Assembly (NCBI GenBank): GCA_022818135.1
Contig: JAFMSR010000019.1
Location: 5,701,773 to 5,765,772 of the forward strand
DNA length: 64,000 nt
From: Saxidomus purpurata
Taxonomy: Eukaryota; Mollusca; Bivalvia; Venerida; Veneridae
Reading direction: 5' to 3'
Shown here: piece by piece, positions 5,011 through 39,474 of the stretch
Layout of the letters: every line of letters begins with the position of its first letter
How positions within the stretch are numbered: the stretch's first letter is position 1
The notes under the pieces: model-generated
Databases searched by the model: none
What the model saw: the letters and a program-made list of their open reading frames with translations, nothing else
Told to the model about the DNA's origin: nothing
Made by a program: the position numbers and the translations under genes

Positions 5011-5071
5011 TGGATGCTGCCAAATTCTGATTGGCTATCAGCTATTTGCCAGCATCCGCACCCTATATAAG
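5011..5071 (+). promoter_or_regulatory. LTR promoter: inverted CCAAT, stem-loop and TATA box
   Basis: TATATAAG at 5064-5071 is a good TATA box, predicting transcription start near 5095. An inverted CCAAT box (ATTGG, 5030-5034) lies 30 bp upstream. The two flank sequences GGATGCTGCCAAAT and ATTTGCCAGCATCC form an imperfect inverted repeat around it. The same module occurs in the 3' LTR at 15041-15101. Start site and R/U5 boundaries are inferred. Confidence 0.55.
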
Positions 5072-5199
5072 TGGCTCAGGTCCAGTAATGGCAGCCAGTT
5101 GACAGCTCGAGCTCGGCAGCATCTGAAATTTAAGCTTGACCCATCTTTTTTTTAGAATATTTCACCTTTAGACAGTTTTCTACATTCATAAGTATACTG

Positions 5200-5205
5200 G
5201 TAAGA
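5200..5205 (+). promoter_or_regulatory. candidate splice donor in U5
   Basis: CTG|GTAAGA is a strong donor consensus lying inside the predicted transcript and upstream of the primer-binding site. Together with the acceptor-like sequence at 11171-11181 it could make a spliced message for the third ORF. This is inference; no transcript evidence is available. Confidence 0.3.
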
Positions 5206-5491
5206 CCAAGTTTGGTTATTTGAAACTGCAGATCCCTTGTATAATATTTGACAGCAGTTTGTTGATAAACAAACAGTGTTTATCAAAGTAGTCCCATAGC
5301 AACTGGCGAGCATTGCTGGACCTGCCGCGATTTTTAATCACTTTTACCAGACTATCGGTCACTCGGATGATATATATATATTTATATATGATTATTACAA
5401 TAATCAATTAATAGATTATTGAAACAACATTGTGTTTGTCTTTTACTTTTGAGAGTCTTCAACTAAATAATAAGCCAGGTGGCTTACAAAC

Positions 5492-5508
5492 TGGTGTCAG
5501 AGAAGTGG
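5492..5508 (+). other. primer-binding site, tRNA-Leu type
   Basis: Three bases after the LTR, TGGTGTCAGAGAAGTGG begins with TGG, the complement of the universal CCA tRNA end. It then matches the complement of the acceptor stem of tRNA-Leu (TGTCAGAAGTGGG type), with an extra GA in the middle. The tRNA assignment is from general knowledge of these primers. Confidence 0.6.
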
Positions 5509-5645
5509 AATGTACTAAGTGTCAAAGTACATTACGAATACTTACACCTACATTAACCAGACTGAAATCAACAAAATATAGTCGAACCTCAACCTACAAC
5601 TAGCTACCTGATTCTACATACTGTATAATAAATCAACTGTTTGAT

Positions 5646-9800: not shown

Positions 9801-10663
9801 CTGAAAATGGCAATGTCTATATTTTAGTTATCTGCGACTGCTTTACACGGTGGACTGAAGCAATACCTTTGCCAAATCAGGAATCAGAAACAATTGCAAA
9901 AGCATTTGTCAATGAATTTGTTTCTCGTTTCGGTGTCCCTCTTCAAGTGCATTCTGATCAAGGCACAAATTTTGTTTCAAAGCTATTCAGCAATATGTGC
10001 AGTCTACTACATATCCATCATACAAAATCTACAGCTCTGCACCCTCAAGCTAATGGAACAGTTGAGCGTTTTATGCGCACATTAGCGGCAATGTTAAGCA
10101 TGTATTGTTCTACAAACCAACGTCAGTGGGATCGCTACCTACCACAAGTAATGATGGCCTATAGGTCATCAGTAAATGCATCCACTGGTAAAACTCCAAA
10201 TCAAATGGTTTTTGGAAGAAATATAGTCCTCTCCCTTCAGGCATTTATTGGGTTTCTACCTCAGTCAAACCACGCCCAAGTTAATGATGCGACAACATCA
10301 GACTACATCACTAGTTTGAAGGATCAGCTGGTTGTGATACATGATCAAGCACACAAGGTCCTGAAAACTAAAATTGAATACAGAAAGAGGCATTATGATC
10401 TTACAGCAAAGAATCGAGCATTCTCAGTAGGTAATCCAGTATGGCTGCATGACAAACAGCGACGCCCTGGTGTCTGTAGCAAACTTTCACCGCACTGGAA
10501 GGGTCCCTTTCTCATTACCAAGAAAATTGATGACTTGGTCTATCTTGTTAAAAGATCTCTTAAGTTACCAGCAAAAGCTGTTCATATTGATAGACTGGTG
10601 AAATACAACTGTGGGAATGTACCAAAGTGGTTTGCTGCCTACTTGAGTGAAAAGTCACAGTAG
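6818..10663 (+). CDS. pol: Pol polyprotein: protease, RT, RNase H, integrase
   Basis: Open frame from 6818 to stop 10661-10663, with no ATG needed because it is entered by -1 frameshifting from gag. Protease: LIDCGATSSLIS at about 7001-7036, with Cys where most aspartic proteases have Thr or Ser. RT: CIDYRKLND near 7990, LDLNSGYWQV near 8105 and YMDD at 8291-8302. RNase H: DTDAS at 8732-8746. Integrase: HHCC zinc domain near 9565-9700, then catalytic D 9776-9778, D 9956-9958 and E 10064-10066, giving D,D(35)E spacing. A GPF motif near 10500 marks the C-terminal module. All catalytic residues are present and there is no premature stop, so the copy may be functional. Confidence 0.95.
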   Translation, partial: LPGKLISADSTGQESADLQSQRPPTTNFSEIQHTARAGSSFNEFDNGFYTSCNINKISVDFLIDCGATSSLISEQKLSEIDPHHQLFRLLPAPNSLHTVNGEQITVAGSIDIVLKLGNQHYDINFIVCDMDTQGILGQDFLKRHVDSINYKKSCLQMGDNIIPLYTGGRSCQICRVEMKETIKIPGQSRMWVPVKVPQSEHLNNNGFIEPLTSFMAKNEVLVMSGIIDTNKDPVVNVINYGNAPATLYKNTNIGLCESYLETESIATARVAHVCETDSDPFISEHLHDLYDRSSIHLNDTEKQGLIKLLHKYRNTFSKSSEDIGITNLVQHAVNTRDAIPVRQPPRRLPLGKRTVEKEEIDKMLSRGIIEPSCSAWASPVVLVTKKDGTPRFCIDYRKLNDLTVKDAYPLPRVDDCIDALSGAQYFSSLDLNSGYWQVGMKPEDKEKTAFATTMGLFQFTVMSFGLANAPSTFERLMENVLRGLQWEECLLYMDDIICPCHTVTQGLERLDHILHRLKEANLKLKPSKCSLFQKKVNFLGHVVSENGISTDPSKINAVKNWQTPKNAKEVRSFLGLCSYYRRFVEGFAKLARPLHRLTEKAFKFDWTDDCEKAFQTLKTALISAPILGYPVPDKQFILDTDASDTATGAVLSQVQNGHEVVIAYLSKSLNKHEQSYCVTRKELLAVVHALKSFHHYLYGQPILLRTDNAAVSWMRNLKQPTGQVARWLELLGTYNINVKHRPGLQHRNADALSRAPCTRCTKQQSGNDVNDSVDCIATSEPDNEVITDTPSNNSVQDSALETLPQLARVVTSNPSPQHSPFEETHILLSRWSQTEISEQQLSDPHLKILLLALNQSNDRPLWQDVSNCSSTTKTLWRMWDRLSVDGGVLFRSWVDDEHTIRKQLIVPEAMQKEVFHFMHDLPSAAHLGADKTLSKVRQDFYWPGMKDDIERFCKQCSQCASRKPHKPVKSPLGQIHVSQPMEKVALDIFGPLPKSENGNVYILVICDCFTRWTEAIPLPNQESETIAKAFVNEFVSRFGVPLQVHSDQGTNFVSKLFSNMCSLLHIHHTKSTALHPQANGTVERFMRTLAAMLSMYCSTNQRQWDRYLPQVMMAYRSSVNASTGKTPNQMVFGRNIVLSLQAFIGFLPQSNHAQVNDATTSDYITSLKDQLVVIHDQAHKVLKTKIEYRKRHYDLTAKNRAFSVGNPVWLHDKQRRPGVCSKLSPHWKGPFLITKKIDDLVYLVKRSLKLPAKAVHIDRLVKYNCGNVPKWFAAYLSEKSQ
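6824..6886 (+). promoter_or_regulatory. -1 ribosomal frameshift signal: slippery site plus predicted pseudoknot
   Basis: GGGAAAC at 6824-6830 is read in the gag frame as G GGA AAC, the canonical X XXY YYZ heptamer, and is followed at once by the gag stop. After an 8-nt spacer, GCTGACTCT (6839-6847) pairs perfectly with AGAGTCAGC (6856-6864). The loop sequence AGGCC (6850-6854) can pair with GGCCT (6882-6886). This makes an H-type pseudoknot with a 2-nt loop, one unpaired A (6855) between stems and a 17-nt second loop. The pol frame is open from 6818, so a -1 shift here joins gag to pol. The same heptamer is used by betaretroviruses; the fold is read by eye. Confidence 0.85.
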
Positions 10664-11186
10664 AATTTAAGCTTCTCAAGAAATACACGTAGTAGTTGAA
10701 CTTTAAGTGATGACTTTATTATGAGAATAAAGTGATATCTCTGTAGTGAGCATATTTTGTGTTGTTGTTTTTTTTGGAGGCGCCTCCACTGGGTATTGAA
10801 AGTGGATTGATCACCCGCTTGCGATATACCTAATTATAGATGTAATTTTGTGTGATATCATTGATGGATATCAGATGTTATTGTGAAATTGAGTAATTGC
10901 GAACTCAATATTTTGTGAATTCAACTATGCAGTGTACGCATATTTCTTGATTAGCAGGCAGCAATGCAAATACGAGAGCGCGGACTACTTTGATAATTCA
11001 GCCTATGAGTAACATTGTTATATTTGAATTGATCCTACCTACATCCCAGTCCTTCACCCTATTACATCTTCGAATGAGTTTTGTAATAACATCGACGCGC
11101 TTTGATGAAATGACTCAATTGATGAAATTTGGAATGTTATTTAGACATCATTGTCTTACCACACATATTTACTCCTTTCAGAAATG
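10664..11186 (+). other. inter-ORF region with acceptor-like site
   Basis: Non-coding stretch after pol. It ends in TTTACTCCTTTCAG (11168-11181), which fits a splice acceptor, followed by an ATG at 11184-11186. That ATG may have been the original start of the third ORF before a retroelement tail inserted right after it. GGAGGCGCCTCC near 10776 is a short palindrome. Confidence 0.4.
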
Positions 11187-11278
11187 AAAACAAAAATAAT
11201 ATCAAACAGGGAATGCCACGTACCAAAAACGCAGCCTCCCCAAAACGAACCCCACAGCACCCAGAAGTGCACACCACC

Positions 11279-11326
<48 letters not shown>

Positions 11327-11418
11327 CACACGACACACACACACAATCATGTACACACACACAAATACACTACCAACACACACTAGCATACAAAGCAAAC
11401 ACACGAGGACAAAACGAA
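11187..11418 (-). mobile_element. 5'-truncated 3' end of a retroelement (family with TG array)
   Basis: On the minus strand this reads a TG array, then the conserved tail ending GATATTATTTTTGTTTT. The same tail recurs at 23925, 33838, 48443 (all minus) and 58803 (plus). The 33.8-35.1 kb copy shows it is the 3' end of an element encoding reverse transcriptase. Homology with that copy runs through the GAGGACAAAACGA text to about 11418. The copy sits inside the gypsy element, just before the open frame of the third ORF. Confidence 0.75.
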
Positions 11419-13321
11419 GTCTGCAGTAGCCACATTCAGCTGTGAAGATTGTCCTGCAGTTTTCAAGACAAAACGAGATCTGCAAAGTCATATACTGAAA
11501 GCAAACCACAAGATGGTAAGGATAGTCTGCCCTTGGTGTGTTGAAAGCAAGGTTCGATTTTTCAAGTATGTACAGGACCTCAGACGTCATGTAAAAGGTC
11601 AACACCCCATCAACTTTGACCAGCTGCCACCTAGAGCTCTTTCAACAACCAACTGCTTCTACCTCTGCCAGGATCCTAAAACGTATCTGTCTCTTTATGG
11701 CTCTTCATCCTTTGACTCACAAGAATCTCTTTTTATTCGCAACATCATAACCAAGTGGACAGCTGGCAGAACTCCGGGGCTTACTCACTGGTTGACTGGC
11801 TGGAATTTGGCTAAGGGTAATCTTACTTCATCAGCACCACACAACAGACCTCCAACTACACACCACTCTGGATCTTCCAACAGCAATGTTTCATCTTCTT
11901 CATCTACTTTGACTTCTACAACTACCACCAAGACATCTGACTTGAACGCCAACTCACCACAACCATTACCTACTACACGCATTCCAAAGAGGCAACATGA
12001 AACCTCAATTGAACTTCAATCCATACATATTTCTGCTGAAGTGAAAGCATATGCATCAACAGACAACAATGAAGTTCTTCTCATAAGGCTCAACCCTTCA
12101 ATCATGCACCATCACAAATACTTAGACGCACTTACAAGAAGAATCAGACATCTCCCATCTACCTTTGTTCCTCCATCTGGCAACTGGAAGCTTCATCTTG
12201 ACGCCAACATCAAAGAGCGGTGTGCTCAAATATTGTCAATTGAACACTCCTTCATTACAACTGTTCTACATCAGCCCGCTGAGCATTTCAAGGCATTACG
12301 CACCTCACCAGAACTTCTTCATCCCACAGAGACTGGGAACAACTTGAAATCACCATTCCCAGATCTTAACAACAACACTGAATCCACTACCGAAACAACA
12401 ACATTAGCTACTTCTGTGTGTTACAACAGCAAGCCACTACTGGAAAACCAACTTACAACACAGAATTCCATCCTTTCTCCTTCAGCATCAACCCAACTGG
12501 ATTATGAGTCAGACCAAGAATCTCTTCGCACACCATCGACAATTACATTACATACTGGAGCTACACCATCTCAACAAGTTGATTCACCGACATATCCAGT
12601 GCACAGCCCACCTCCGATGTACAATAATTGTCCAACACCATCTAATAATCCAACAGAAACCACTGCAACTACCACCACCACAACTACCATATCTACACCC
12701 CTCACATCATCGTCATCAACAATTTTAGATACGTCAACAGCCAGTCAGTCTGTTACTACAATATCGTCAACAGCAGAATATACACCATCTTCAGCTCTGA
12801 ATATTCCGAAGCCCATCTTCTACAAACCAACACCCATACACAAGACACCATCTGATCTAGCACGCAACCTTCTCAAAACTGGGAGTATGCCTATCTTGCC
12901 TCCAGGACGTCGTGACTGGGCAGCAGTACCAGAAGAGAGCATCTCAATCACATCACATCTCAATTGGCCTCCGAAAAACTGGACAACTTTCTCCAATGAC
13001 CAGAAATTACTAGCCACTGAATACGCCGCTATGCTGCTGGAGCAACAAGACCAATTCCATCCCATTGATAGAAGTTCGCTATTGGCAAAATACAACTTCC
13101 TGATTCTCCCAGCTACAACAGTAAAGAGTACAACAAATCATTCAAAAATGCAAGTCTTCAATTATCTAAATGTAAAGGCAATAGCAGAAGGAGCATCAAG
13201 ATCCAGTATCCAAGACCAGCTTTCACTTATTAGATGTTTCCTTCCATCACCAACCACAGACTTTCTTCAAAAGATAGCTCAAATTCCACTAAGACTAAAA
13301 GACTCAACAGCAACTGTATGA
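11387..13321 (+). CDS. accessory ORF3 with zinc fingers, env position
   Basis: The frame is open from 11387 (stop TAG 11384-11386 just before). Its first Met is at 11513, giving 602 residues. A classical C2H2 finger (CEDCPAVFK...H...H, CX2CX12HX5H, 11441-11509) lies upstream of that Met, so the true protein probably starts earlier. A second C2H2-like motif follows (CPWC...RRHVKGQH, with a longer spacer). The middle is Ser/Thr-rich low complexity with near-pure Thr runs. A conserved-looking C-terminal block starts near residue 430 (PPGRRDWAAVP, DRSSLLAKYNFLILP). No signal peptide or membrane segment, so it is not an envelope protein. Function unknown; nucleic-acid binding is inferred from the fingers. 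Confidence 0.7.
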   Translation, partial: HTKQTHEDKTKSAVATFSCEDCPAVFKTKRDLQSHILKANHKMVRIVCPWCVESKVRFFKYVQDLRRHVKGQHPINFDQLPPRALSTTNCFYLCQDPKTYLSLYGSSSFDSQESLFIRNIITKWTAGRTPGLTHWLTGWNLAKGNLTSSAPHNRPPTTHHSGSSNSNVSSSSSTLTSTTTTKTSDLNANSPQPLPTTRIPKRQHETSIELQSIHISAEVKAYASTDNNEVLLIRLNPSIMHHHKYLDALTRRIRHLPSTFVPPSGNWKLHLDANIKERCAQILSIEHSFITTVLHQPAEHFKALRTSPELLHPTETGNNLKSPFPDLNNNTESTTETTTLATSVCYNSKPLLENQLTTQNSILSPSASTQLDYESDQESLRTPSTITLHTGATPSQQVDSPTYPVHSPPPMYNNCPTPSNNPTETTATTTTTTTISTPLTSSSSTILDTSTASQSVTTISSTAEYTPSSALNIPKPIFYKPTPIHKTPSDLARNLLKTGSMPILPPGRRDWAAVPEESISITSHLNWPPKNWTTFSNDQKLLATEYAAMLLEQQDQFHPIDRSSLLAKYNFLILPATTVKSTTNHSKMQVFNYLNVKAIAEGASRSSIQDQLSLIRCFLPSPTTDFLQKIAQIPLRLKDSTATV

Positions 13322-14404
13322 ACTCAACAACACAACATCAACTCAACAAAACTTTCACGAACCTTTTCTGAACTCTACAGCAACTTTTTATTAAGGCAAC
13401 TCATCAACAAGAACTTTAATGAATTCATCATGAACCAAAAAAAAAAAACCTAAAAATAAACAGTGAACTTTATTAACTGTAAATCATATACTAAACCATT
13501 CCTGGCGAAGTACCTGATGATCATCAACTCAACAATTTTCATATTATTGGTTCAACAATACTACCTCAAATTGTATTGTACTACATGAAGAACCGACGTC
13601 TACATTGGAACTATATCGTTTAACCATAATACCGATGTCTACACTGGAACTATATCGTTTAACCATAATACCGATGTCTACACTGGAACTATATCGTTTA
13701 ACCATAATACCTATGTCTACACTGGAACTATATCGTTTAACCATAATACCGATGTCTACACTGGAACTATATCGTTTAACCATAATACCGATGTCTACAC
13801 TGGAACTATATCGTTTAACCATAATACCGATGTCTACACTGGAACTATATCGTTTAACCATAATACTGATGTCTATACTGGAATCTCTACAAACTAGTGA
13901 CATTTATCCGCGACAATATTCTATGATTAAAATAAAAAGTGATTTAATTTGAAAATTTAATGAACTCTTATAGACTTTCGAACTACAGTTTAGCTCTTAT
14001 TCATAGATTCACCACAGAAATTACAAATCAGGAACAGTTAAATGAAATGTTATTAAGGTATTAAGATGAACATGAACAGAAACTTTGGGATAAGATGTTA
14101 CATTAAATATTGTAAAGCAAATGAGTAAGTATATCATGTTATTGTCATTATGCATGTTATTTATTTTCAGGTAATAGATACCCAGTTGCATTTTCTCATG
14201 TTTGTCATTTTTGAGAATTTTAAGGTTTAAGCTTACCTATTTCAGTAAAGTATATCTAAGGTACTTGCATACCCAGATAATAAGAATTGAATTATTGCTG
14301 AAAGTTCTATTTATTGTGCATTTATTAATGTATTTGATGTTTTAACTTAATGACTTATTGCTTTGTAAACTTCAGGTGAAGTTCATTCTTTAAGGTGGGG
14401 GAAG
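13322..14404 (+). other. 3' non-coding region of the LTR element with 39-bp minisatellite
   Basis: Seven regular 39-bp copies of a unit containing AACTATATCGTTTAACCATA begin near 13608, 13647, 13686, 13725, 13764, 13803 and 13842, almost identical to each other. The period is a multiple of three, so both strands stay open and give spurious 115-119-residue repeat ORFs. The rest, 13890-14387, is AT-rich with no gene. Confidence 0.85.
14388..14404 (+). other. polypurine tract
   Basis: AAGGTGGGGGAAG directly abuts the 3' LTR. It is the expected primer for plus-strand DNA synthesis. Confidence 0.75.
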
Positions 14405-15518
14405 TGTAATGACTGTATGGCTATCCGAAATACACTGTCCGAAAGTTGTCACTTATTTGATTTCAGCTTACCTTGAATTTTAGCGTAAATAAGTCATTCC
14501 TTTGTTTAATTCCATTTGTAATAATAACTTTGCTTAACACTTGATGTTTTTAGCACAGTTTATGTTCACAGAATTGTTGTGTATCATTGTATTTTGCATT
14601 TCCAGCATTTATGACACTTGCTGTCAAGTTGAAAATGTCCGCCATGTTTACTATTTTTGTTACGGCGAATTAATCGAACCAAAATTCTGTTTTATCTATT
14701 TCATGTATAATTATGCATTACAGAGTTGTATTTTAACTGAACGGTTGTTTTAAGTATTATGGAGTAATTCATAATAATAGATTACCATATTCTGAGATAC
14801 AAGAAGTAAAAGTATTAGGGACTATTTTAGTCACTTGTGCGGAAGAAGCTGGCAAGTTTTTATGTTAGAATATCAGCGTTATTTAATGTCTGTTACAGTT
14901 TTAAAGTATATTTTATGCTATTTTCAGTTAAAATGGAACCACTTTGTATTGTTAGTGATTAACTTGGAACATTTTATTAATACTTTAATTTTCTTGTCCA
15001 TCACAGTGTCCGAGGCCGTATAACTACTGTGCTGGATTGCTGGATGCTGCCAAATTCTGATTGGCTATCAGCTATTTGCCAGCATCCGCACCCTATATAA
15101 GTGGTTCAGGTCCAGTAATGGCAGCCAGTTGACAGCTCGAGCTCGGCAGCATCTGAAATTTAAGCTTGACCCATCTTTTTTTTAGAATATTTCACCTTTA
15201 GACAGTTTTCTACATTCATAAGTATACTGGTAAGACCAAGTTTGGTTATTTGAAACTGCAGATCCCTTGTATAATATTTGACAGCAGTTTGTTGATAAAC
15301 AAACAGTGTTTATCAAAGTAGTCCCATAGCAACTGGCGAGCATTGCTGGACCTGCCGCGATTTTTAATCACTTTTACCAGACTATCAGTCACTCGGATGA
15401 TATATATATATTTATATATGATTATTACAATAATCAATTAATAGATTATTGAAACAACATTGTGTTTGTCTTTTACTTTTGAGAGTCTTCAACTAAATAA
15501 TAAGCCAGGTGGCTTACA
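14405..15518 (+). repeat. 3' LTR
   Basis: Copy of 4375-5488 at constant offset 10030, followed by the ATAA target duplication at 15519-15522. Confidence 0.95.
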
Positions 15519-15522
15519 ATAA

Positions 15523-22230: not shown

Positions 22231-23887
22231 GTTAATTTTATGTCTCAAACTCTACTTTGGTTAAGTTTTTTTTAATAAAATGTCAAAGATCGCGGGAAAC
22301 GTCAACAGAAAGCATCGCAAACATGACGTCATTTTAAAGACGTCATCGTCACATGGTTTCATGCATTCATTATGCTTTGCTCAGTATATCTTTTGACATT
22401 AATCAGGGTAACATATTTTGATAATTTTCACTGTGTGGACAGTGAGTTCATCAGAATATAATCCACCGTTATATTTCGATAAAGCACCGACAAACATAGA
22501 TTAAAAGCTAAGGGTAAGCAGTCTTTCATTTTTATATTTGGATTTTGTACATTTTAATATTAAAGATGCATCTAGAGACCAACGAGGAAAGTCGAGGAAC
22601 AAATGTTCCCGAATATTAACATGATAAATAGTTTATCAGTACCTGGAGAATAAAACCATTGATATCACCATTCTGACGAGCTGTAAATAAGTACAAAATG
22701 ATTGATGGAAATTGAGTGTTCTCTCATCGTTTTAAATTTGATATTGTCTTAAAAAAGCTAGTGTAATTAAACAAATACAACGTTGAAGCTTAGGGAGATA
22801 TATTTTGGATGAGCGCTTTCTACTAGGTTTCACAACTATAAAACATCGAATAATAAACCGGGGTCAAAAGGATGAGCCAAATGAATTAGTTAGTCTTTAC
22901 ACAAACGTTGTAGAACGTACAGAGGTTATGTTGATTCACAAAAACAAATTTTATTTCATGTCGGAACAGCCTACTACAGGGATAAAATTGCTTATGAAAT
23001 GCGCTGTTAACTAAAACCTGACATCTTACCATATTATCTCGTGGTCTGATCATAACATATGGCTATGTAGGTGATATCCCTTACCTGAACAGACCGTGGG
23101 CTGTAAAGTTCATTCTAGACCATCTTATTTAGATTTCTTCTTGTCGTTGTTGTTTATGTCGAGACAAGGTAAAATGCCGCTCCGAATTAATGACTGGGTT
23201 ATGTTGTAATTATCTACGCTCCTTCACTCTAGATATCGTACAAAGATTCTTGTAGCCTAAAATAAATACTTTACTGTATATCAGAGACATAGTCTCTGAC
23301 TATTAGTAAACGAAAACTTGAACGGGACAAATATCAAAATAAAAATATCCAGGGCCGGGAAATATACAGTACAGTAAAGATCTACAGTAGAGAAATTATT
23401 AATCTACAGTAGGTTTATATCATTGTCCGTGTCAACTTTAATTGAACTGTAGATTATATATTGATAAAACAGATCAGCAACGACATCAACGCTAACATTT
23501 CAATGTAAACAAAATTAAAGTATTCTGAAAAAGACACGCTTCGCTGATTAGTGAAACGGCAACAGCCGTGAAAAAAGAACGCGCTGAGAATCTTCTGATT
23601 GGCTGCTTGTTTGAACACGCCTCTTTACCCGGGTACTGCTTCAAATTTGAAGTTACCCGTTTCTTTTACCAGCTATTATTTCCATATTTGAAATTGAGCC
23701 GTTTTTCTCGCGGTAAACGAGTGAAATTTTCAACGCGGTAACAACCATGTGGTAAACGGAACATAAACGTGCGCGCCACTGTAGCTTTAAACCATATTAA
23801 CCTAGTCCATAGATATAAGACAAGTTTGTCTTCTACAAACTCTATGAGTACGTTTACTCAGATATCCCTGTTGAATTGTGCCAAATG
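22231..23887. other. non-coding, nothing recognised
   Basis: The 69-residue ORF at 22805-23014 has no domain I recognise. No other feature. Confidence 0.5.
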
Positions 23888-23924
23888 ACATGGAACTACA
23901 AAAGTACAGATGGTTCCATAAAAA

Positions 23925-23985
23925 CCAAAAAAAATATCAAACAGGGAATGCCACGTACCAAAAACGCAGCCTCCCCAAAACGAGC
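23925..23985 (-). mobile_element. short retroelement 3' tail copy with flanking direct repeats
   Basis: About 55 bp of the dispersed retroelement tail (CAAACAGGGAATGCCACGTA on +). It is bracketed by direct repeats ACATGGAACTACAAAAGTAC (about 23889-23908) and ACATGGAACTACACAAGTAC (about 23993-24012), one mismatch apart, which may be a long target duplication. Confidence 0.65.
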
Positions 23986-24206
23986 CAATAAAACATGGAA
24001 CTACACAAGTACGCTTTTCCCAAATTACATGGAAATCATTTTAAATGATATGAGATTAACCTGTTCAATCACAGATCCAGATAATGTTATTATGTTATAT
24101 GACATAGGTTGACCTCAAGATTTGTTATAACCTAGATGTATCTCTGGATGACCAATTGAAAGAGACAGTTTCGGAATCCGGATCAGTTAAAGTGCTGGCC
24201 AGCTGC

Positions 24207-25699
24207 TCAAAATTTATAGAGGCGCCGTTCATTACCCACAGTCGTCTGCAGCAACTGCTCGACTTGTACACCCCGTCAGGAGGCGGCCATTACAGCCACA
24301 TCCCTAATATATGTCGTAGTGTTCCAACCAGGTGTTTTATTTTCTGTTGCCACTGGGGACATATAAGGGGAGTCCGTCTCGATTAGCAGACGGTCCATAG
24401 GGATAGCCCGAAGAGCAGCCAACTGTTCTGAATTGAAGCTGGACACTCTGGCGGTGTACCCTAAATAGCAGTCAGGGAAGGCTACAGTCCAGACAGCAAC
24501 AACTTGGTAATCTCCGCTAGAGCACTGGAGGTGTATGGGCTGCTTTTTTACGCAGTACTCTTTGAATATATCCAGACCCTTCTTGAAGATAGTGCTGTCA
24601 GTATAGGTGTTCCCCCGTAAGTGGAGAACCAACACCCTACCCACACAGGCATACTGGAGTATATGCCCAAACACCGCCTCCTGCTTATCCCAGGTTCTCG
24701 CATGCTCAGACCAATCCTACCCTATTTCTCCCAAACCAACCGTCATTGGCAGACTCAGAAGTCGTTGAAGGTCACCGAAGTGCTCATCGCAGAACTCCAA
24801 AGCATGCCTAGGAGTGTATCCTACTGAGACTTTAACCAGGTCACAAGCAGGAATTTCCTTGGGGAATGACTGCGGCAAAATAAACCGTAACCAAGCCCAC
24901 AACAGTTACTGAGAATGCCGGAAGCACAGACGGCTCATGTGCTAAAACCCCGGGTAAAAGGGTTAGACCCATAACTTTGCATGTGCTATTCGTGAGTTTA
25001 TTTTTTAGCCTTTTCTCAGTCCTGTCAAGGTGGAAGTGGCTGTCGAACGCCTCTAAATAATTTTGGCTACTATCCATAACAGCCACAGGAGTCGGGATAC
25101 CCTACTGAGCCTCCCCGAAACATGACACAGGGTGCATGGTTTCCGGTTCAGCACCAGCCGGAGTAACCACTGCCTGCCTGGTATCCACAGGAAAAGCCTC
25201 TGCCGCTCCCATAGGGTTCCATTGAAGTTCACCCCGGCACCAATCCATATAAACCTCTAGGTTCGCCTCTGCCATGTATGACACTAGTGCCATAAGTGCC
25301 CTCCAATGTATCAGAGCCGCTACTGAAATGAGAGGAGCCAACTGGAATGTCCTAGGTATTGGTAACCTAAGGTACTGGCAAAGAGCCCTCATAGCGGTCA
25401 GGGTACCCTCAGAGATTGGCGATTGATAGGACAACAGGCGATTATAATTGACATAATCCTGGAGATCCTACAAAGACTTCCCAGGTCCCAGGAGTATGAC
25501 ATCAAGTCTCTTGAGGCTTCACACACGGGCTGTCCGGAATTCGGGATCATTGAGCCTGTCAAGGAAAGTGCCCGGCTGATGACACATAAACGCATGTTTG
25601 CGCAGTGTTCTTTGACAAGAGTCACACGCTGGGCAAATACTTTGACCGTGTCTCACTCTCTGACTTTCTCCCTCCCCTCGATAACTGTGGACTGGCCAT
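24207..25699 (-). pseudogene. TatD-type nuclease ORF in env position (decayed)
   Basis: Starts at ATG 25699 (MASPQLSRGGRK) and ends near TGA 24209-24207, roughly 495 codons with several breaks. An N-terminal Cys/His cluster (CPACDSCQRTLRKH...CH) lies near 25600. A coding-like block of unknown function follows (RALCQYLRLPIPRTF near 25390; WCRGELQWNP near 25215). The rest is a full TatD domain: HFH in FDSHFHLD (25030), E in GLGEIG (24720), H in LHLRG (24620), H in PIHLQCSSG (24530) and D in LIETDSPY (24375). TatD enzymes are metal-dependent hydrolases of DNA, with HxH, E, H, H and D ligands, all of which remain readable. Breaks include TAG near 25101, a frameshift near 24900, TAG at 24717 and TGA at 24276. 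Confidence 0.75.
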
Positions 25700-25739
25700 A
25701 GTGGTGTTCAACCCCAAAGTGCAACCTGCAGCATTATCC

Positions 25740-28700
25740 AGAGTCACTATAAAGAGTTTTATCTCTTACCTGCTGGGGTCTAATACCAGCGTCAGAGAGA
25801 GCCTCTGCAGTGACTGAGGCAGAGCGCTGCCTAGCACGCCTCCTCCTTCTGGATGAAGCCCGCCTAGATAGGCACTGCTCTCCACCGTTAGATTGTTCCA
25901 TTTATGGAACGCGTCTACCACTTTCCATATTAGGGAATTCAATCTGAACCACAAGCTGAGGAATTCCCTGTACTGGACCATCCACCCTCCTTTGTTCCAT
26001 TTCTGGAACCACCAAGAATTGAGAAAATAACCCTTCTTCTGACAATTCCCGCTGAGCTGGAACACGATCAGATTCTTTAGAGTCTTTAGAAATGAATGAC
26101 GGTACCTCAGAATCCAAATTAGCTGGACATGTTGAGGTGGCTGTAGGCACGGAGGTGGAACCCGTCTGGAATTCAGGCCGATAGTCCTTAGTGAGGTGAC
26201 CCTGACCATGATATTCTTGATACGGGGTGACCTTTCGCTTGAAAGTACGACCAGATGGCGACGGCAGTGTTTTATTGATCGTCGCGTCATCAAAGAATGA
26301 ACTCAGATGAGCCCGGGTCGTTCTAATCCACCTGTGAACATTGCGGGACTATGATATTTTCCCCTGTGCCTCAACCAAACTTAGGAACTTATCCGGAAGA
26401 ATCCTAGTACTAAACCTTTGAATGGAATCAATCAAATTGAAGGGACTAAACAGTACCCCCACCTAGTCTTCTATTCTTTGAACCCTATGATACCTTCAAA
26501 GGTCTCTGACCATTCATTACATGACTTTATCGGAAAAAGAATTAATTCTGATTTCTTGCATAATGGACAGAAATATTTGCCAATGTCCATAGCGTCCCGA
26601 GGAGAGACATTCACACAGGCTTCATGATACCACTTCTCACACTCATCACATTGTATCATGAATTCCCCTAAAAATGAACCTCTACACAGACAATACTGGA
26701 CATCCTGTTTCCCTTCCATTGGGGTCGGAAGAGTCTTGGCAAGCAACTGAAAATTATTCTTATATTTTCTGAGCCAATTCGGCAATTCTCGTTATCTACA
26801 TTGGGTTAATTTGGCATGGTTTGCCACAAATACAGAGCTTCTAAGTTTAACCCTATAAAGAAACGAGGTCAATTTTGCTACTACAATCCCGGGACCCTTC
26901 CAAGGTGGAGCCAGTTTTCTACACTTGCCCTTCCAGAAGCTGTATCGAGAATGTACACCAAAGCCCCTGGCTCTTAAGACCTAGCGTAAATCAAAACCTC
27001 TTTTCATTCTACTCTGTGTTGTTTTGAGAGTTTTACGAGCGTTATCATGAGCTATTTTCCCAGTTCTACCAGGTATTCGTCACTCTGCATTGGGTTGGGG
27101 GTAACCAAAGGAAACATGAGATCAGCTGGATGATTCACCTCTCTCCCCAACATTAACTTGTTAGGGGTGAAGCCAGTACTTCTATTGACACATGATCTCA
27201 TTACACTAGCAATCTGCTCTAGGTATCTGTCCCATTGGTTTTGATTTTTGCCAATGCAAAAACGTACCGCGTCCATGAGAGTGCGATTGAAGCGTTCCAC
27301 TTGGCCATTTGTAGAAGCCCTATAAGGTGTAGTTCTTGCCTTATGAATGTTCTTATGAATGAGTTCGCAAATATTTCGAACCAGTACACTCTCAAAATGT
27401 CTGCCTTGGTCCGTAAAGATTTCAAAAGGATAGCCAAATCTTGAAAAAAAATCACCAATTGCTGCATGTGCTCCTCTGCAGTATGGGAAGGCAATGGAAT
27501 GCACTCGACCCACTTTATGAATTGATCAACCATCATTAAAATATATTCATTTCCGTTTTTAGTTTTTGGCAAAGGACCAAGAAAATCCAAATGGACCCGT
27601 TCCATTGGATAACTGGCATGGAAATTAGTCATGGGAATTCTCGCATGCTTGTAAGGCTTTTTGTTTTGTTTACAAATAGCACAGCTGGCTTTATACAGTT
27701 CGATATCCTTCCCATTCCAAGCCAATAATACTTGCACCTTAATCTTGCCTTGGTTCGAACAATGCCCTGGTGTCCCGAAGATGGTATACTATAATGCAGC
27801 TCTATGACGTGTTCAATCAAATAGTTAGGGATTACCAGGACCCTATCGTGATCCAATTTATTTTCTCTCCACAATTACCCTTTTCAAGAAAAAACATCTC
27901 CCGGCAGTTCGATGATTTCTTTGTTATAGGATTAGCCAAGAAAAGCTCCCCTGCGAGGGCTCAACACCACCGTCCAACCATGCTATCAGCATTTTTAGAC
28001 TCTTGTCCTGAGCCTGGGCTTCTAAAACGTCTTTGACATTATGTCCTAAAACCGAAACAACTCGACCCGATGCCTTAGCATCTGATATGGCTGGCCCAAT
28101 ACGTAATATGCATACAACTGGATCTGAGCCAGCCAGAATATCAAAATGCGAATGCATGAAGTCCTCGAAGGAATCTGTGGTCAAAATAGTAACCTTGTTC
28201 CATATTCTGGAACTAGATAGGATATTTTCGGGTGTATTTCCAAAATTGTTGGAATTACACGATTCCAGCCCTACTTGAGATACGGGAAATAGTTCCATAT
28301 GAACTGGACTCGTGATTGTCGCACCAATGTAGTGCACATGAACCTGATTTGGTATTACTATGAGAAGTGAATGCTTTCCAAGAATCTAATGGAATAACAT
28401 CATCCACCTCTGTCGCAAATTCGGCCCAATTTGTATGGGCTCTTTGACAATATGGGCAACCTCCACATGGCAAAGTTTTTAAATCATATCCCATTGAGCA
28501 AGAATTTTCTTCAGATATTCTAGAAAGTGCATCAGCAGTTTTTGACCTTTACGATGCTGAATCTTTTAATTATATTGGCTTAATTCCTCCATTCGTCGGG
28601 CTAATTGACCTTGGGGTTGTTTGAAATTAAGTAACCAAGTTTGACTGCTATGATCAGTTATCCAAGTAAATGAAATGCCTAGGAAATCGGATACTGCTAG

Positions 28701-30250
28701 TAGTTCATTTCTGGTACAGTACTTTCTCTGCTCTTCAGTGAGAGAAAAACTTCTTTACGCTATAACTCTTTCACTGTCCTCTTGGACTTGACTGAGCTCA
28801 CAACCCAGAGCCAAATTACTAGCATCACAATCCAGTATAAATGGACCTGTTTTGTTTGATAGTGCCAGAATATGAGGGGATATCAATTTTCACTTGATAA
28901 GATCAAAAGTTTTCTGTTCTTCCCCCCCCCCCCCCCCACCCACACTTAATTTTTTTGTTTCCGGCCAAGTCATACAGTGGAGCTGCTAGGTCAGCATAAT
29001 CTTGAATAAAAGACCTATGATAATTGGCCAAACCCAGAAACTTCTGAACTTCATTCTTATTCCCTGGTTCAGGCCAATTCTTAACCACTGTGATGTGTTC
29101 ACCACTCATTTGAAGACCATTTTTGCAAACTAGCCTGCCCAAAAATTTTACCTTTTTCTAAAAAAACATGTTTTGGTTTTTAATTCAAGTGGCTGTTTCC
29201 TTAAACGCTCAAACACCTTTTCTAGATTTATCAGGTAATTATTGAAATCCTTGCCCATGACAAGAATACCGTCAAGAAAAGCAAGAACTATATCCCTATT
29301 TAACCCATGTAAGATCAGTTTCATGACTCTGGCAAATGTAGGCGCATAACAAAGTCCGAATGCCATTCTTATATACTCATACAGGCCATACTTTGTAGTA
29401 AAGACAGTTTTCTTGCGATCTTCCTCCGCTATCTTAATTTGCCAGTAAGCACTGTTAGCATCCAGTTTGGAAAACCACTCAGTCCCCTGAAGGGTATCAA
29501 GACATTCTTCCGCATTTGGGAGTGGGAACACGTCTTTAACCGTTACATTGTTAAAAGCACGATAGTCTAGCGCACAGGGCACATAGCCATCTCTTTTTCT
29601 TATCAACACTGGTGCCGAAGCCTATTCTGACATGGATGGCTGAATAACTCCTGCCCGGACCATTTTTATTTGTAAATGTCCTTCTTCTTCAGAGACAAAA
29701 CATACAGGAGTTCTGCGCATTGTTTGTTTAATGGGTTTAGCATCCCCAATGTCAATACGATGCTCAATGTCTGAAAACTGGCCAAGATCGAATTCCGTTT
29801 TTACAAAAACGTCTCGATATTGAATGATTAGCTTTCCAAATTGCAACGCCTGTTCTAGGGATAACATTTTAATGGATTTTTCATACATATCCAAGATGGA
29901 CAGTAACATCCAAATAGTTCTCCCCAGTTACAGTGACTTTATTTACACTTTTTGTTCCCGTTGAATCTGAGACTGGTGTTATGTCAAGAGTTTCATGTGC
30001 CAACCCAATATGAGTTTCTGTTTTCAGGGTAATATACTTGTCCGTCACGTTCAGTGCACAAACTTAAGGATTGGAGTGTGCTTTATGATCATTGGGATCA
30101 GTACTTTTGGCCCTATGGTTGGCTCTACCATGTAGTCAGGCATCTTGTCCCCTAATTTACCCTGAATATGTGTGGTCAAATTTGGCTGTATTACTGCTCT
30201 TTTACTAACAGTAACCTTAGCTATCAAATTGGAATAACTAACACATTGAA
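25740..30250 (-). pseudogene. pol: gypsy Pol with C-terminal PHD finger (decayed)
   Basis: RT occupies about 29910-28900: ALDYRAFN near 29565, and the catalytic motif reads FLDG at 29279-29268 where FLDD is expected, so a catalytic Asp is lost. RNase H (DCDASNLALG, then YCTRNELLAV) lies at 28840-28600. The integrase zinc domain starts near 27830; the core gives HLDFLGPLPK near 27580, FTDQGRHF near 27410 and NGQVERFNR near 27300, split by a frameshift near 27470. A GPY/F-like stretch (LAPPWKGPG) is at 26905. The PHD finger follows within about 50 residues, then a Ser/Glu-rich linker and an Arg-rich tail (SSRRRRRARQR near 25850). Two separate minus-strand pieces (28494-28255, 28337-27924) are linker between RNase H and integrase. 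Confidence 0.8.
26558..26695 (-). other. PHD finger domain
   Basis: C4HC3 ligands are all present: YCLC, CDEC, WYHEAC and CPLC, in standard order and spacing. The segment FMIQCDECEKWYH keeps the Met and Trp, and the domain starts with Tyr before the first Cys. In PHF2/PHF8-type PHD fingers these three positions form the aromatic cage that binds trimethylated lysine 4 of histone H3. That similarity is from family knowledge; binding is inferred. Confidence 0.85.
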
Positions 30251-30424
30251 TAAATGAAAGTGATGAAAAATAGATAGCTATGGAGTACTCTGATTCCCGT
30301 ATAACTGGAACTCAACAACACAACTATCCAGGTTCGAAATTCCAATAAAATTGGAGTTCAAACTTTGATAAATATAAATTCTGAAAATTAGGTGATATTA
30401 CCTATTCTGATGTGGCTAGTGATG

Positions 30425-30745
30425 ATGAACAAGTAGATCACTGATAATAATGACGATGTTAATCACTGATGATGATTCCACTGGTTATGATGTAACGCAC
30501 TGATGATGATAATGTAACTCACTGATGATGATGATGTAACTCACTGATGACGATGGTTCCACTGATGACGATGGTTCCACTGATGATGATTGTTCTACTG
30601 ATGGTGATGGTTCCACTCATGATGATGTAACTTACTGAAGATAATGGTTCCACTGATGGTTCCACTGATGATGATGGTTCCATTGATGATGATGTTACTC
30701 ACTAATGATGAGGTAACTCACTGACGATGATGTAACTCACTGATG
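30425..30745. repeat. GATGAT-rich minisatellite
   Basis: Irregular array of units such as ACTCACTGATGATGATG and GGTTCCACTGATGATG. It abuts the 5' break of the decayed gypsy element. Confidence 0.85.
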
Positions 30746-31297
30746 ATAATTCTAATTCTAATTAAGTTTTAGTAGTTCTAGAAAATGATATCCTTATAGG
30801 GTTATGCCAAACCATTTTAAAGGAAATCCCGGTTATGAAATTAGAATATTTGCACTTATTTCCAATTGCACTTTTCAGAAATTAATTTTATCTAAGAGCA
30901 CCAATGTAAGCAGAAACGATATCTCTTATATAAATACATTTCCACACTTTTCTTTTTTTTAGAGACGATACGGTATTATTAAAAGTGAAATTGAAAGTTC
31001 TTCCAGCTTACTGACTTGTACTACTTTATGTTATTGATTTATCACTGTTTACACAGTTGACCTATATATTTCTCCCCCTTACTTTATTCCATCTTGATTT
31101 AATTAAGAGTGAAATCCAATACAAAAAATATAAAAAGGGTTTAGGGATAACAGGAAATACAAAGATGATAAGGCAAACATCAATGAAGTAAATGGTCCAT
31201 TTCTGGTCCATTTATAAAAAATGCATTCAGCAAGTGTCTTCCAATTCTTGAATGTGCAATTAAATCTGAGTATGCATTTTACCTTGCAACAGGACAA
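30746..31297. other. non-coding, nothing recognised
   Basis: AT-rich with no gene or pairing repeat. Confidence 0.5.
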
Positions 31298-31299
31298 TA

Positions 31300-32148
31300 C
31301 AGTAAACTTCGTATAGATCGACTCCGGATATAACGTACTTTCGGATATAACGAACAGTTTTTTTTTTGGCCCCTTTTTTCCCTTCTTTGTTTAATGTAAA
31401 AATATATACGGTTATATCGTACTCCGGTTATATGAACATTTCGGATATAAGGAACATTATTTTCTGGCCCAACAATGAAAAATGTACAGTAAAGAAATCG
31501 TATATATCGAACTGCAAATATGTTACGAAGAGTTTAAAATATCTGTTGATTTGGCATTTTTCTTTTGCCGTCTGCATTGTATTTTTCATAGCGCACGTTT
31601 AGCTATTATTCATAAAGGTAAATCATTACACTTGCGTAACCTTTTGTTAAACTAGTGAAATGAAAATACAAACATAATTGCTAAGTACGATATTCAAGTA
31701 TTTTACGTCAATGATTGTGAGCGTTTCTTTAAAAGCATGCAGTCCGGATGAAATCCCATTTTGGGAAATATTTCGAGTTATGGCAAGAGAGCGAAAATCT
31801 TCTTCAATTGTGTTTGTTTAAGTATTGCCAATGGAAACATGAACCGTCTTTTTTATGTTTTATTAATCCTTGCAATTATTTTACATAGATTTACGTGTAT
31901 AGGAAAGGATTACAGTTATAGATCGTTATAACTCTTCAAAAAGAGGTAGGGAAATCAAAAGCAACTATAAGTTGATGGTTCGGATTTTATTTCATTAGAC
32001 TATAGAAATACTTGTTCGATATATATTTTAGTTCGATATATAATCATCGTATATAACGAACTTGTTCGATATACGGATATAAGGAACTCCTGATACACGG
32101 AACAATTTTGATAGGTCCCGGGCAGTTTGTTATAAGCAGAGTTTACTG
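31300..32148. mobile_element. pogo/mariner-like MITE, 849 bp
   Basis: Ends CAGTAAACTTCG and (reverse complement) CAGTAAACTCTGC, each flanked by TA (31298-31299 and 32149-32150). Subterminal GGATATAACGAAC-like text occurs on both sides. No transposase; the only ORF (31366-31602) is domain-free. Related to the truncated end at 20809. Confidence 0.75.
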
Positions 32149-32689
32149 TAAGTAGAAAAATAGATCCAAAATACATGGATTCTAACTAATTATATAGTTA
32201 TCCACCTTTGCAAGTGACTGCGGTTTAAATGCAAGATATGATGCATAGATTTTTAGAAAATTAAGCCGCAATAAATACACCATTTCTGTAAAATTTGAAT
32301 ATTGTGCAATCATAGCCACAAAACAGAAAAACCGAGATTCAGTACAAAAACAAGAGCTGGTTGTAAAACACGTATGCTCCCCTTGATGCAAAAGTTGTTT
32401 TTTTGCTATAAAACAATTGAAAACTAAAAAAACAAATTGAAAAATAAGTTTTTTTAGTAACTGTGACCTTGACCTTGACCCCTAAAAAATTTGTTTTGAT
32501 GAAAACAAATAAAAACTAAAAAAAATATGAAAAAAATAATTTTAGTAGAGACCTTCACCTAAAAAAAAATTAAAACTAAAAAGATTAAAAAAAAAATATC
32601 TTCCTCTCCATGCAAGCTACCTACACACCACGTTTCACTGCAAATTGTCACTCCTAGCTCATGTTATAAGGCGGATATCATATTTCTAT
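32149..32689. other. A-rich non-coding sequence
   Basis: Several runs of CTAAAAAAA-type text at 32410-32600. No gene. Confidence 0.5.
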
Positions 32690-33355
32690 TTTTAGTAACA
32701 GTGACCTTGACCTTGATCCTAGTGACCCCAAATGCAACCCAAGCTTCCTCTCCCCGCAAACTACCTACCAATTAAATTTCATTGAAATTGGTAACTCCTA
32801 ACTTAAGTTATTGAGCGGAAACCATTCTACAATTCCGGGTCGCTGTGACCTTGACCTTTGACCTTCTAAGCTCAAAACCATTAGGGGTCCTCTACCGGTT
32901 ATGAACAACATCAACATAAAGTTTCAAGATGTAAGGCCCAAGCGTTCTCGAGTTATTGTTCGGAGACTGTTTTACAATTACAGGTCACCGTGACCTTGAA
33001 ATTTGACCTACTGACCTCAAAATCAATAGGGGTCATTTACTGGTCATGACAAAATCAGTTTTAAGATGCTAGGTCTAAACATTTTCAAGTTATCATCCGG
33101 AAACCGTTTTACTATTCCGGGTCACTGTGACCTTGATCTTTGACATACTGACTTAAAAAAATAATAGGGGTCCTCTGCTGGTCATGACAAACCTCCACAT
33201 CAAGTTTCTGGTTGCTAGGCCTAAGCGTTCTTGAGTTATCATCCGAAAACCAGTTGGTAGACGGACGGACGGACGAACGGACATACTGGCAGGCAGGCAG
33301 GCGGGCAGGCAGGCAGGCATATCAATATATCCATCTTCTTCGAAGGGGGCATAAT
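32690..33355. repeat. bivalve-type GTGACCTTGACC array with terminal module
   Basis: Three or four units of about 140 bp share GTCACTGTGACCTTGACCTT, GACCTACTGACCTCAAAA, ATAGGGGTCATTTACTGGTC and a CAAGTTATCATCCGGAAACC-like end. They are followed by GACG/GCAG tetranucleotide runs (33254-33319) and end in CTTCTTCGAAGGGGGCATAA. I recognise this composite as common in bivalve genomes. Confidence 0.75.
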
Positions 33356-33837
33356 TAGCTGACAATATTGTATTTGGCTTAAAAAATGAGTGTAATTAAA
33401 TTAACTTTTCTATAATGTTAAGGTAAATCTACAATTTTTTTGTAAAATTAGTACATGGTCAAATAGTACATACCGAATTTCTACAGGACCGTCATCATTT
33501 TTGACAGGATTCTAGTAAAATATGCAAAATGTTAGAAATTTAATCCTATCAGAAAACTACAATGATACATTTCTGTGAATTTAATCCATAGGCCACATAG
33601 TGAAAGAAGTTGCCACAACAACTGGCCACGACATTATTAATTACTAAATATGGAAACAAATCAGTGAAATATTCATGTAAATGCCTATTTCCAAGAAGGC
33701 AGGTCATAGAAATATTCAATAATTAGAGTGAACCCATCAACTATCCCATCAGTATTGCCACCTACTGTATATGGCGGTACCCAACAAAAAGCCATATAAG
33801 CTATGAGCTGACCTTAACTGGTCATAAATCCTAACTA
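33356..33837. other. non-coding, nothing recognised
   Basis: No gene or repeat identified. Confidence 0.5.
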
Positions 33838-37830
<3,993 letters not shown>

Positions 37831-39474
37831 ATGGCTGAAAGGCCGAAAAGAATAAAACAGATCCGTGATTTCGCTGAATACTTTGATGGCAATAGCAGTG
37901 ATATAGAAGATCTATCTGACAGTGATGATGATGTGACAAAAGTTCTGAAAAATGCAACTAGTGATAGTGATACTGATAGTGACGATGAACCATTAGTTAA
38001 CTTGAAACGTAAACGACCCAGTGACAGTCAGACAGCTTATTCTGGTGATGATAAGGATAGTTCAGAAGATGGAGATGATGATATTCCTTTGGTCCAGTTA
38101 GTTGGTAACATCACTGACACACCTGTTGATGGTTCTGTGTGGACATCATGCGAATATCGGGCTCCTAACAGTTCTTTTACTGGTGATACAGAGGCCATCC
38201 AAGAAAACTTACAAACGCCTTATGCCTATCTAACAAAAATCATAACTGATGAAATGTTTGATGTTGTTTCTACTGAAACAAATATGTACAGCTTGCAGAA
38301 ATATGGAATTAGTTTAAATACCACCTCAAAAGAGATCGAAATTCTAATTGGTGTTAACCTTCGAATGGGAATTACCAAGGTACACAAGCTGCGAGCTTAT
38401 TGTTATGGCCCTTTTGCCAACGTCATGTCTTGAAACAGATTCTAGAATCTTATTCGGTTGTTGCATTTCTCAAACAATCTGGATCATGTTCACACTGGCA
38501 CTCCAGAAAAATTATGGAAATTGCGACCATGGCTCAATTCACTGCGAGAAAGATTCCTAAGCATGACTTCTGAGGAAAGTTATTCTATAGATGAAATTAT
38601 GGTGCCGTTTAAAGGAAAGTCATCCATTAAACAATACATCAGAGGAAACCAAAATCCCTGGGGCTTTAAAGTGTGGGGCAGAGCTGGTACATCTGGAGTA
38701 CTTTATGATTTCGATGTATACCAAGGGAAAACTGAATCTAATGAAAATGAAAAATCACTCGGAGTTGGTAGAGATGTTGTTATGAGGCTTGTTTCAACTC
38801 TGCCAGAAAAGAAAAAATACAATAATTACTATACGTCAGTACCCCTTGTAAAAACACTGAATGAAAAACAGATTCTGTTTGTGGGAACGATAAGGCAAAA
38901 TAGAATTGAAGCAAAATGGTTAAGGTTCATTAGACAGCAAAGTTGAAACAAACAGTAACATTATTGCTGTAAGGTGGTATGACAATAAATCGGTCAATCT
39001 GTTGTCTTCATACATGGGTGTCGAACCGGCTCAAACTCTGTCGTCTGTTCACTGTATAAACCGCGTGTCAACTCAAGAAGATGGTACTTGTACATTTTCT
39101 GGCACACAATAATGATGTAGTGAATGCATGGCTTTGCCATGAGAAACATAAAAATTTGCAGGGAACCAACTCTATGAAGCTTTCTGACTTTATAAATCAT
39201 GTTGCGGACTCGCTTATCGAGACTACTGCCCTTCTGAATTATCTCCATCGCAAAAGCTCAAAACTTCAAGTAGCAAAATTCCATCGTCTGCTAAACGTCT
39301 AGATTAAATAGGTCTCTTACCACTCTATGAAGATAAGAGGCAAATATGTAAACATTCAGGGTGTGATGAGTTTTCGTTCGTTAAATGCGTGAAGTGTGGA
39401 GTGCACTTGTGTTTCAACAGAAACAAGAATTGTTACATGCCGTATCATGTTTATGTCATTGACAATATAGCATG
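37831..39474 (+). pseudogene. piggyBac-family transposase, inactivated
   Basis: MAERPKRIKQ start at 37831, then a Ser/Asp/Glu-rich N-terminus as in piggyBac proteins. The DDE_Tnp_1_7 domain follows: YGISLNTTSKEIEILIGVNL, SIDEIMVPFKGKS (first Asp), YNNYYTS where DNYFTS is expected (second Asp replaced by Asn, 38821-38823) and RWYDNKSVNLLSSY (third Asp near 38981). A C-terminal Cys-rich finger (CKHSGCDEF, KCVKCGVHLC) is at about 39350-39440, with a stop near 39472. In-frame stops TGA 38431 and TAG 38443 and a frameshift near 38930 break it. A terminal repeat resembling CCCTCTAGAAC lies at 39961-39983. Confidence 0.85.

Follow-up and report, generated by a model that had tools for sequence, protein, structure and literature searches.

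A decayed Ty3/gypsy retrotransposon of the bivalve Saxidomus purpurata joins an integrase-linked PHD finger to a third reading frame with a TatD domain

In a 64,000-nucleotide stretch of the Saxidomus purpurata genome (1.135 Gb; C19:5701773-5765772, hereafter the window), a gypsy-type pol region that runs into a PHD finger is followed by a second open reading frame (ORF) with a TatD-type nuclease domain. Do the two belong to one mobile element and, if so, what could such domains do for it? The locus holds a single Ty3/gypsy long terminal repeat (LTR) retrotransposon in a dead copy; the anatomy of the element is LTR, long leader, gag, protease, reverse transcriptase, RNase H, integrase-GPY/F-PHD, a third ORF with TatD, and LTR. 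An earlier note on this DNA had drawn the element at 24207-30250, which covers under half of it; collinearity with a sister copy in the same genome (C4) traces it on the minus strand, where all of its features described below lie, from a 5′ LTR remnant at 37623 down to 23782. The window copy is without gag, protease, and 3′ LTR and has gained insertions.

Pfam searches on the separate open frames of the minus strand detected RVT_1 (4.2e-17, 29151-29621), RT_RNaseH_2 (1.4e-8, 28758-28889), RT_RNaseH (4e-5), Integrase_H2C2 (1.5e-8, 27632-27874), and PHD (PF00628; 4.8e-11, 26474-26791), in agreement with the earlier reading of reverse transcriptase, RNase H, integrase, and a GPY/F-like region running in order on one strand into a C4HC3 PHD finger. 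The integrase core of this broken copy (rve, 0.001, 27222-27788; rve_3, 1.2e-4, 27055-27525) and the GPY/F-like piece (SH3_Tf2-1, 0.024, 26795-26980) score below cut-off. The features are a broken protease-reverse transcriptase spacer with reverse transcriptase (29148-30224; PR_RT 91-417 of C1794, another copy in this genome, aligns by tblastn to 30224-29250), RNase H (28545-28922, likewise aligned by tblastn with C1794), a broken integrase with its H2C2 and rve core (27055-27951), the GPY/F-like module at the integrase C-terminus (26795-26980; 57-71% identity to relatives over 42-46 amino acids, 8 rows), and a PHD finger with eight of eight zinc ligands present (26558-26692). The last two pieces are in a common frame with one stop between them.

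A search with the GPY/F-PHD pieces as query yielded ten database relatives from 50 candidates; because the query itself bore a PHD finger, these are no gauge of PHD-less relatives. PHD is above cut-off in all ten and rve in six, three of which have H2C2 too; every protein stops 1-11 residues past its last PHD cysteine, and both the W/G/P columns of the GPY/F-like module and the C4HC3 zinc ligands are invariant. With seven of these relatives the integrase piece of the window shares 60-65% identity and with the partial P0046 52% (8 rows), against 46% with an intact gypsy element of the same window. At C1794 a single open frame of 475 amino acids contains H2C2 (1.3e-20), rve (3.4e-11), and PHD (2.6e-10). 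By sequence comparison the PHD-bearing integrase is a real lineage, and the ten fusions of PHD to integrase or to its C-terminal region, together with the C1794 frame, support the proposal of a distinct LTR-element lineage with PHD. No chromodomain was matched in the window pieces at E values up to 1, and none was found in the C1794 integrase-PHD frame; a search of viral contigs with the integrase-PHD alignment gave no relative.

The TatD ORF is full length, being composed of an N-domain, a C2H2 finger, a helical domain, and TatD (TatD_DNase, PF01026; 6.5e-16, 24279-24716). An N-domain profile built from 11 relatives matches 26459-26250 with an independent E value of 2.3e-6 over the six frames of the window, and this region scores 23.9 bits, whereas none of 300 dinucleotide shuffles exceeds 5.0; the TatD ORF therefore begins where pol ends. 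The same profile led us to reject 25766-26348 as a DIRS-type reverse transcriptase fragment, as this stretch is the N-domain and linker of the TatD ORF. The C2H2-type finger (25579-25635; CPACDSCQRTLRKHAFMCH in translation) has its C, C, H, and H columns kept in 61-62 of 63 relatives. The helical domain (25264-25578) is placed by tblastn of relatives and by helices in the predicted structure of one of them, P0005, and the broken TatD domain reaches to the stop codon (24207-25053), relatives aligning down to 24210, which adjoins the stop at 24209-24207. Along its 2,151 bp the path crosses seven in-frame stops and two frame changes, and Gln replaces the second His in the HxHC motif, so that one metal-ligand His is missing. 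The description of a second ORF ending in a full TatD domain is thus right for the family and wrong for the window copy.

Relatives of this ORF were collected in two partly overlapping sets, 44 among the best 8,000 scored candidates for the broken protein (with X at stops) and 78 long relatives (E ≤ 1e-5) for the TatD domain of P0004. Full-length members of ~600-1,170 amino acids have the N-domain, a charged linker, the C2H2 finger, the helical domain, and TatD; the N-domain profile matches 56 of 84 long relatives at E<1e-3, and the finger pattern is likewise found in 56 of 84. In 63 rows picked from 110 TatD relatives, the conserved columns that we take to be metal ligands (HxH, E, H, H, D) are kept in 61-63. 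A regular-expression census finds all five motifs in 47 of the 84 long proteins; the alignment columns are preferred because these patterns are strict and some of the proteins are partial. The model of P0005 (mean predicted local distance difference test score [pLDDT] 80, predicted template modelling score [pTM] 0.53, 63 sequences) has three confident modules, namely a five-helix N-domain (~1-90), the finger with the helical domain (~257-402), and TatD (446-718), and the linkers between them are of low confidence. In a midpoint-rooted tree of 39 rows, the 32 rows of element proteins cluster together (support 100/99); outside this cluster lie six further TatD proteins, which are presumably bacterial, and a snail protein, P0120, which we take to be TATDN2-like. 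The window copy is joined with Mercenaria (99/97). Viral contigs searched with the TatD alignment gave no relative, and the best 80 of 546 loci in prokaryote contigs hold only bacterial or archaeal TatD.

Pol-PHD and TatD almost certainly belong to one element. We compared ten TatD places in this genome, the window and nine others, leaving out weaker ones at C3 and C6 (50.7 Mb); copy counts here are lower bounds. PHD adjoins TatD in five of the ten (the window, C4, C21, C1794, and C13), C4 and C21 being counted as one locus because they are >99% identical, flank upstream of the 5′ LTR included. At C4, 193-bp direct repeats that are 97.9% identical lie outside pol (4742957-4742765) and outside TatD (4729988-4729796). 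Trimmed to TGTTGTG...TGCTTCA, they show three differences over 187 aligned positions, one of these just beyond the CA end (Kimura two-parameter [K80] distance 0.016), and the purine tract GGGAGGAG precedes the 3′ LTR. By the terms of the earlier note, pol and TatD would be separate if a 3′ LTR stood between them or if TatD had unrelated ends; at C4 the 3′ LTR lies past TatD and matches the 5′ LTR upstream of pol. Besides C4, a 3′ LTR turned up at C13, C17, C73, and the two C7 places; 5′ LTRs were found at C4, C21, and the window alone. The junction is the same in three of three other loci looked at (C4/C21, C1794, and C13): pol ends CPLCKKSN-stop, and after seven codons TatD begins MSSNEWPG in the same frame. 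The pol stop is read as TAG at C1794 and is not seen at the corresponding place in the window. C1794 also encodes a gag (zf-CCHC, 1.7e-4, above cut-off; Retrotrans_gag, 7e-4, below it) and a protease (Asp_protease_2, 2.3e-5, 25.4 bits against a cut-off of 24.3, a match that is partial because the frame ends). The order of reverse transcriptase, RNase H, and integrase, the gag zinc knuckle and the aspartic protease before reverse transcriptase at C1794, and the paired LTRs at C4 are those of Ty3/gypsy elements.

Gene models of two other species support the order of pol then TatD. In Mytilus edulis P0083, an aspartic protease (~15-118) and a pre-integrase stretch (388-486) are followed by the finger and TatD, and the latter stretch best matches the PHD lineage (P0049, 2.6e-18; P0048, 1.1e-17, 43%; the other gypsy of the window, 1.9e-8). 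In Magallana gigas P0058, a pol stretch (6-166; 6e-6 to that other gypsy) is followed by TatD. The remaining 108 of 110 TatD proteins have no gypsy stretch at E ≤ 1e-3.

Several observations pull the other way. At C17, PHD and TatD lie on one strand with ~5 kb between them and most of the integrase missing, and the C7 (two places), C73, and C6 stretches that were fetched contain TatD pieces and no pol. Both LTRs are seen at one locus only, C4, the flanks of which (GTGAT and GTGGT) form an imperfect target-site duplication with four of five bases; of the suggested sharing of one LTR pair and one target-site duplication by PHD and TatD, the first part is borne out there and the second only to that extent. 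No 3′ LTR was found at C21, where the match ends ~30 bases before the position of that at C4, and the stretches fetched at C13, C1794, and C17 hold no 5′ LTR. P0083 and P0058 are predicted gene models in which neighbours could have been fused, and the pol stretch of P0058, matched to the other gypsy of the window, could come from a lineage other than the PHD one.

Among the copies with TatD alone, those at C7 (twice) and C73 (L098, L100, and L102) have the same 3′ piece, consisting of TatD C-terminal DNA from about position 849 and the 3′ LTR, with partly similar flanks; they are probably one truncated copy duplicated together with its surroundings.

The window copy is best described by comparison with C4. 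Its 5′ LTR remnant (37441-37623) is 84.5% identical to the C4 5′ LTR over 194 columns, in a collinear match running from 37623 to 37251. The leader (30450-37440) is preserved as collinear blastn matches of 67-91% in pieces (37251-37440, 35411-35799, 35134-35412, 33355-33848, 32150-32349, 30912-31297, and 30450-30896) with insertions between them; at an E cut-off of 1e-6, nothing in the C4 stretches matches 35800-37250, 33849-35133, 32350-33354, or 31298-32149. At a deletion junction (30225-30449), ~3.6 kb of C4 (4736486-4740072) is missing from the window, and the corresponding region of C1794 encodes the gag and protease. The 3′ untranslated part (23782-24206) is interrupted by a dispersed repeat at 23918-23986 and ends ~115 bp short of the position of the C4 3′ LTR; the match to this flank stops at position 424-425 in eight of nine fetched places and is absent at C6. 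No 3′ LTR of the element was found in the window, and a search inside the window alone gave no LTR pair for it. Pol has eight stops and six frame changes (5.4 per kb) and TatD seven and two (4.2 per kb), a similar density, as expected if both arrived together.

Two features are associated with the ends and insertions of this copy. The 1.3 kb insertion at 33849-35133 contains an ORF of 195 amino acids (34536-35123) and, just past its stop, a strong selenocysteine insertion sequence (SECIS) element (34462-34523, minus strand, 38.7 bits, Rfam). The ORF has no Pfam match and looks like a Penelope-like element, a group that includes selenoprotein-coding members. A transposase-like ORF (37768-38430; Pfam DDE_Tnp_1_7) adjoins the 5′ LTR remnant.

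Among the best-scored candidates, most named relatives of the TatD ORF are from bivalves, and the relatives found with P0004 include Saccostrea, Pinctada, Mytilus, Mya, Dreissena, Ruditapes, and sea urchins. Some clusters exceed 100 sequences (P0056, 133; P0074, 125). Five element-type TatD proteins (P0010, P0032, P0086, P0088, and P0092) are filed under bacterial metagenome-assembled genomes (Candidatus Thiodiazotropha and Sedimenticola), which belong to clam symbionts or their kin; they are probably host DNA in the bins. Between copies in the S. purpurata genome, the ratio of nonsynonymous to synonymous rates (dN/dS) is 0.32 (583 codons), 0.28 (400), and 0.47 (378) for TatD, and 0.46 (240 codons) and 0.36 (387) for integrase-PHD. 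Running counter to these values, a third integrase-PHD pair, C4/C13, gives 1.64 over 161 codons with 13 differences. Post-insertion decay is included in these ratios, and constraint in active elements is therefore probably stronger.

What might the two additional domains contribute? With fair assurance we favour a Ty3/gypsy lineage in which the PHD finger would tether the element to chromatin marked by histone H3 trimethylated on lysine 4 (H3K4me3) and the TatD third ORF would act on replication intermediates. That the PHD finger is an H3K4me3 reader is the likelier part. The closest solved chains are CXXC1, PHF2, PHF8, and BPTF for the window PHD and PHF2, KDM7A (listed as JHDM1D), PHF8, and CXXC1 for that of one relative, all of which we take to be H3K4me3 readers, and ten of ten relatives retain Y/F, M, and W at the presumed equivalents of the aromatic-cage positions. 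Such a finger would bring the integration complex to active promoters. The chromodomain of chromoviruses favours heterochromatin, and PHD targeting would be the opposite choice. Tethering to active promoters appears the likeliest role because of these nearest chains, the kept cage positions, and a precedent reported in a review (PMC8149907), in which integration of HIV-1 (human immunodeficiency virus type 1) was shifted toward transcription start sites by a fusion of ING2-PHD with the integrase-binding domain of LEDGF.

The assignment of TatD as a replication nuclease is more tentative and falls somewhat short of an even chance. Given the retention of its metal-ligand columns, the family is predicted to be an active nuclease, and the protein may be a metal-dependent enzyme that trims or clears RNA or DNA intermediates of the element's replication or integration. 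According to a review (PMC12754012), human TATDN2 acts on R-loops by degrading their RNA strand, an activity that by analogy makes RNA-DNA hybrids or single strands likely substrates. A bolder version, which we think improbable as a whole, envisages a widespread marine-invertebrate lineage whose integrase would read H3K4me3 and aim at active promoters and whose TatD, in the same frame as pol and separated from it by one TAG stop, would be made partly as a pol-TatD read-through product and hence be a packaged replication enzyme.

The alternative that survives best, itself a minority prospect, is that TatD counters host defence by clearing small RNAs, RNA-DNA hybrids, or DNA-sensing ligands and has no part in replication; binding of nucleic acids, which the N-domain, finger, and charged linker suggest, would suit it, whereas the TATDN2-like candidate P0120 falls outside the element clade. 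Rather less probable, at about one chance in four, is a PHD finger that reads unmodified H3 or makes protein contacts inside the intasome. Some PHD fingers do read H3K4me0, and both cage and specificity are here predicted by comparison; the nearest solved relatives, however, are H3K4me3 readers, and the Y/M/W positions are kept. A reading of PHD and TatD as captured passengers with no function is improbable. Few copies were found in this genome, and among the pol-bearing copies with frames listed there is none in which both pol and TatD are single open frames; against this, the ligands are conserved across bivalve and sea-urchin relatives, TatD dN/dS is below 0.5 in three of three pairs, and the PHD tail occurs in every database relative, albeit as found by a PHD-bearing query. 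Least credible by far is a TatD that is an unrelated insertion or host gene beside a gypsy remnant, a notion favoured by a shift in G+C from ~41% in pol to ~50% in TatD and by the TatD pieces fetched without pol, and largely refuted by the paired LTRs around both at C4, together with the common seven-codon junction, the adjoining PHD and TatD of the window, and the 3′ untranslated part common to the copies.

The element as favoured here, with a PHD-bearing integrase and a TatD third ORF, resembles chromoviruses of the Ty3/gypsy group in its order of reverse transcriptase, RNase H, and integrase, in its GPY/F module, and in a histone-reading domain at the integrase C-terminus; it differs in having a PHD finger in place of the chromodomain, in a predicted preference for active rather than silent chromatin, and in the TatD ORF. 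The bdelloid rotifer elements Juno and Vesta (PMC5408684, seen in part) are likewise gypsy-type and have a third ORF that encodes an enzyme, either a DEDDy exonuclease or a GDSL esterase; the nuclease fold is another one, and in the accessible text the word PHD occurs only in a reference title. In the excerpts of PMC2836005, Ginger1 elements have a gypsy-type integrase with GPY/F and extra C-terminal domains, Ulp1 and PHD in the case of Ginger1-9_HM, but they are DNA transposons with terminal inverted repeats, unlike the present element with its reverse transcriptase and its direct repeats at the ends of C4. The ING2-PHD/LEDGF fusion shares the tethering of integrase by PHD; there, however, PHD was engineered onto a host factor and is not part of a natural integrase. 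TATDN2 and other TatD nucleases have the same fold and metal-ligand motifs; the element proteins fall in a separate clade and have an N-domain, a C2H2 finger, and a helical domain in addition. In the open-access literature searched, available in part and with repeat databases and subscription papers lying outside the search, no LTR retrotransposon with an integrase PHD or with TatD is described, and the earlier note's remark that no described family has both stands within those bounds. The words PHD and TatD are absent from the main text of two mollusc surveys (PMC6238403 and PMC8905726), and a figure legend on the Hox cluster in a giant squid paper names TATDN2 beside transposon-type genes (PMC6962438).

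Target choice is a long-standing question for LTR elements, and an integrase naturally fused to PHD, as that of chromoviruses is to a chromodomain, would make a choice of active chromatin directly testable, in parallel with the engineered PHD tether that is reported to move HIV-1 integration. The TatD ORF represents a second nuclease fold captured by LTR elements, besides the DEDDy type of rotifers. Bivalve genes named TatD or TATDN2 that have the N-domain and finger are likely element proteins and not host genes, and the element may explain part of these annotations.

The window also contains a second, near-intact gypsy element on the plus strand (4375-15519), with no PHD in its single pol of 1,281 amino acids. 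Its terminal direct repeats (4375-5489 and 14405-15519; 1,115 bp, 99.7% identical, ends TGT...ACA) belong to this other gypsy and not to the PHD/TatD element. It has a probable 4-bp duplication (ATAA), a gag-like ORF, and, in the env position, an extra ORF of 644 amino acids (11387-13321) with a C2H2 finger. A repeat of ~65 bp, 93-99% identical, occurs at five places (11187-11251, 23918-23986, 33840-33907, 48442-48508, and 58743-58804), adjoins a CA/TG repeat at three of them, and is probably the end of a dispersed mobile element. Finally, 48565-50181 is a tandem duplication of ~0.9 kb with 95% identity.

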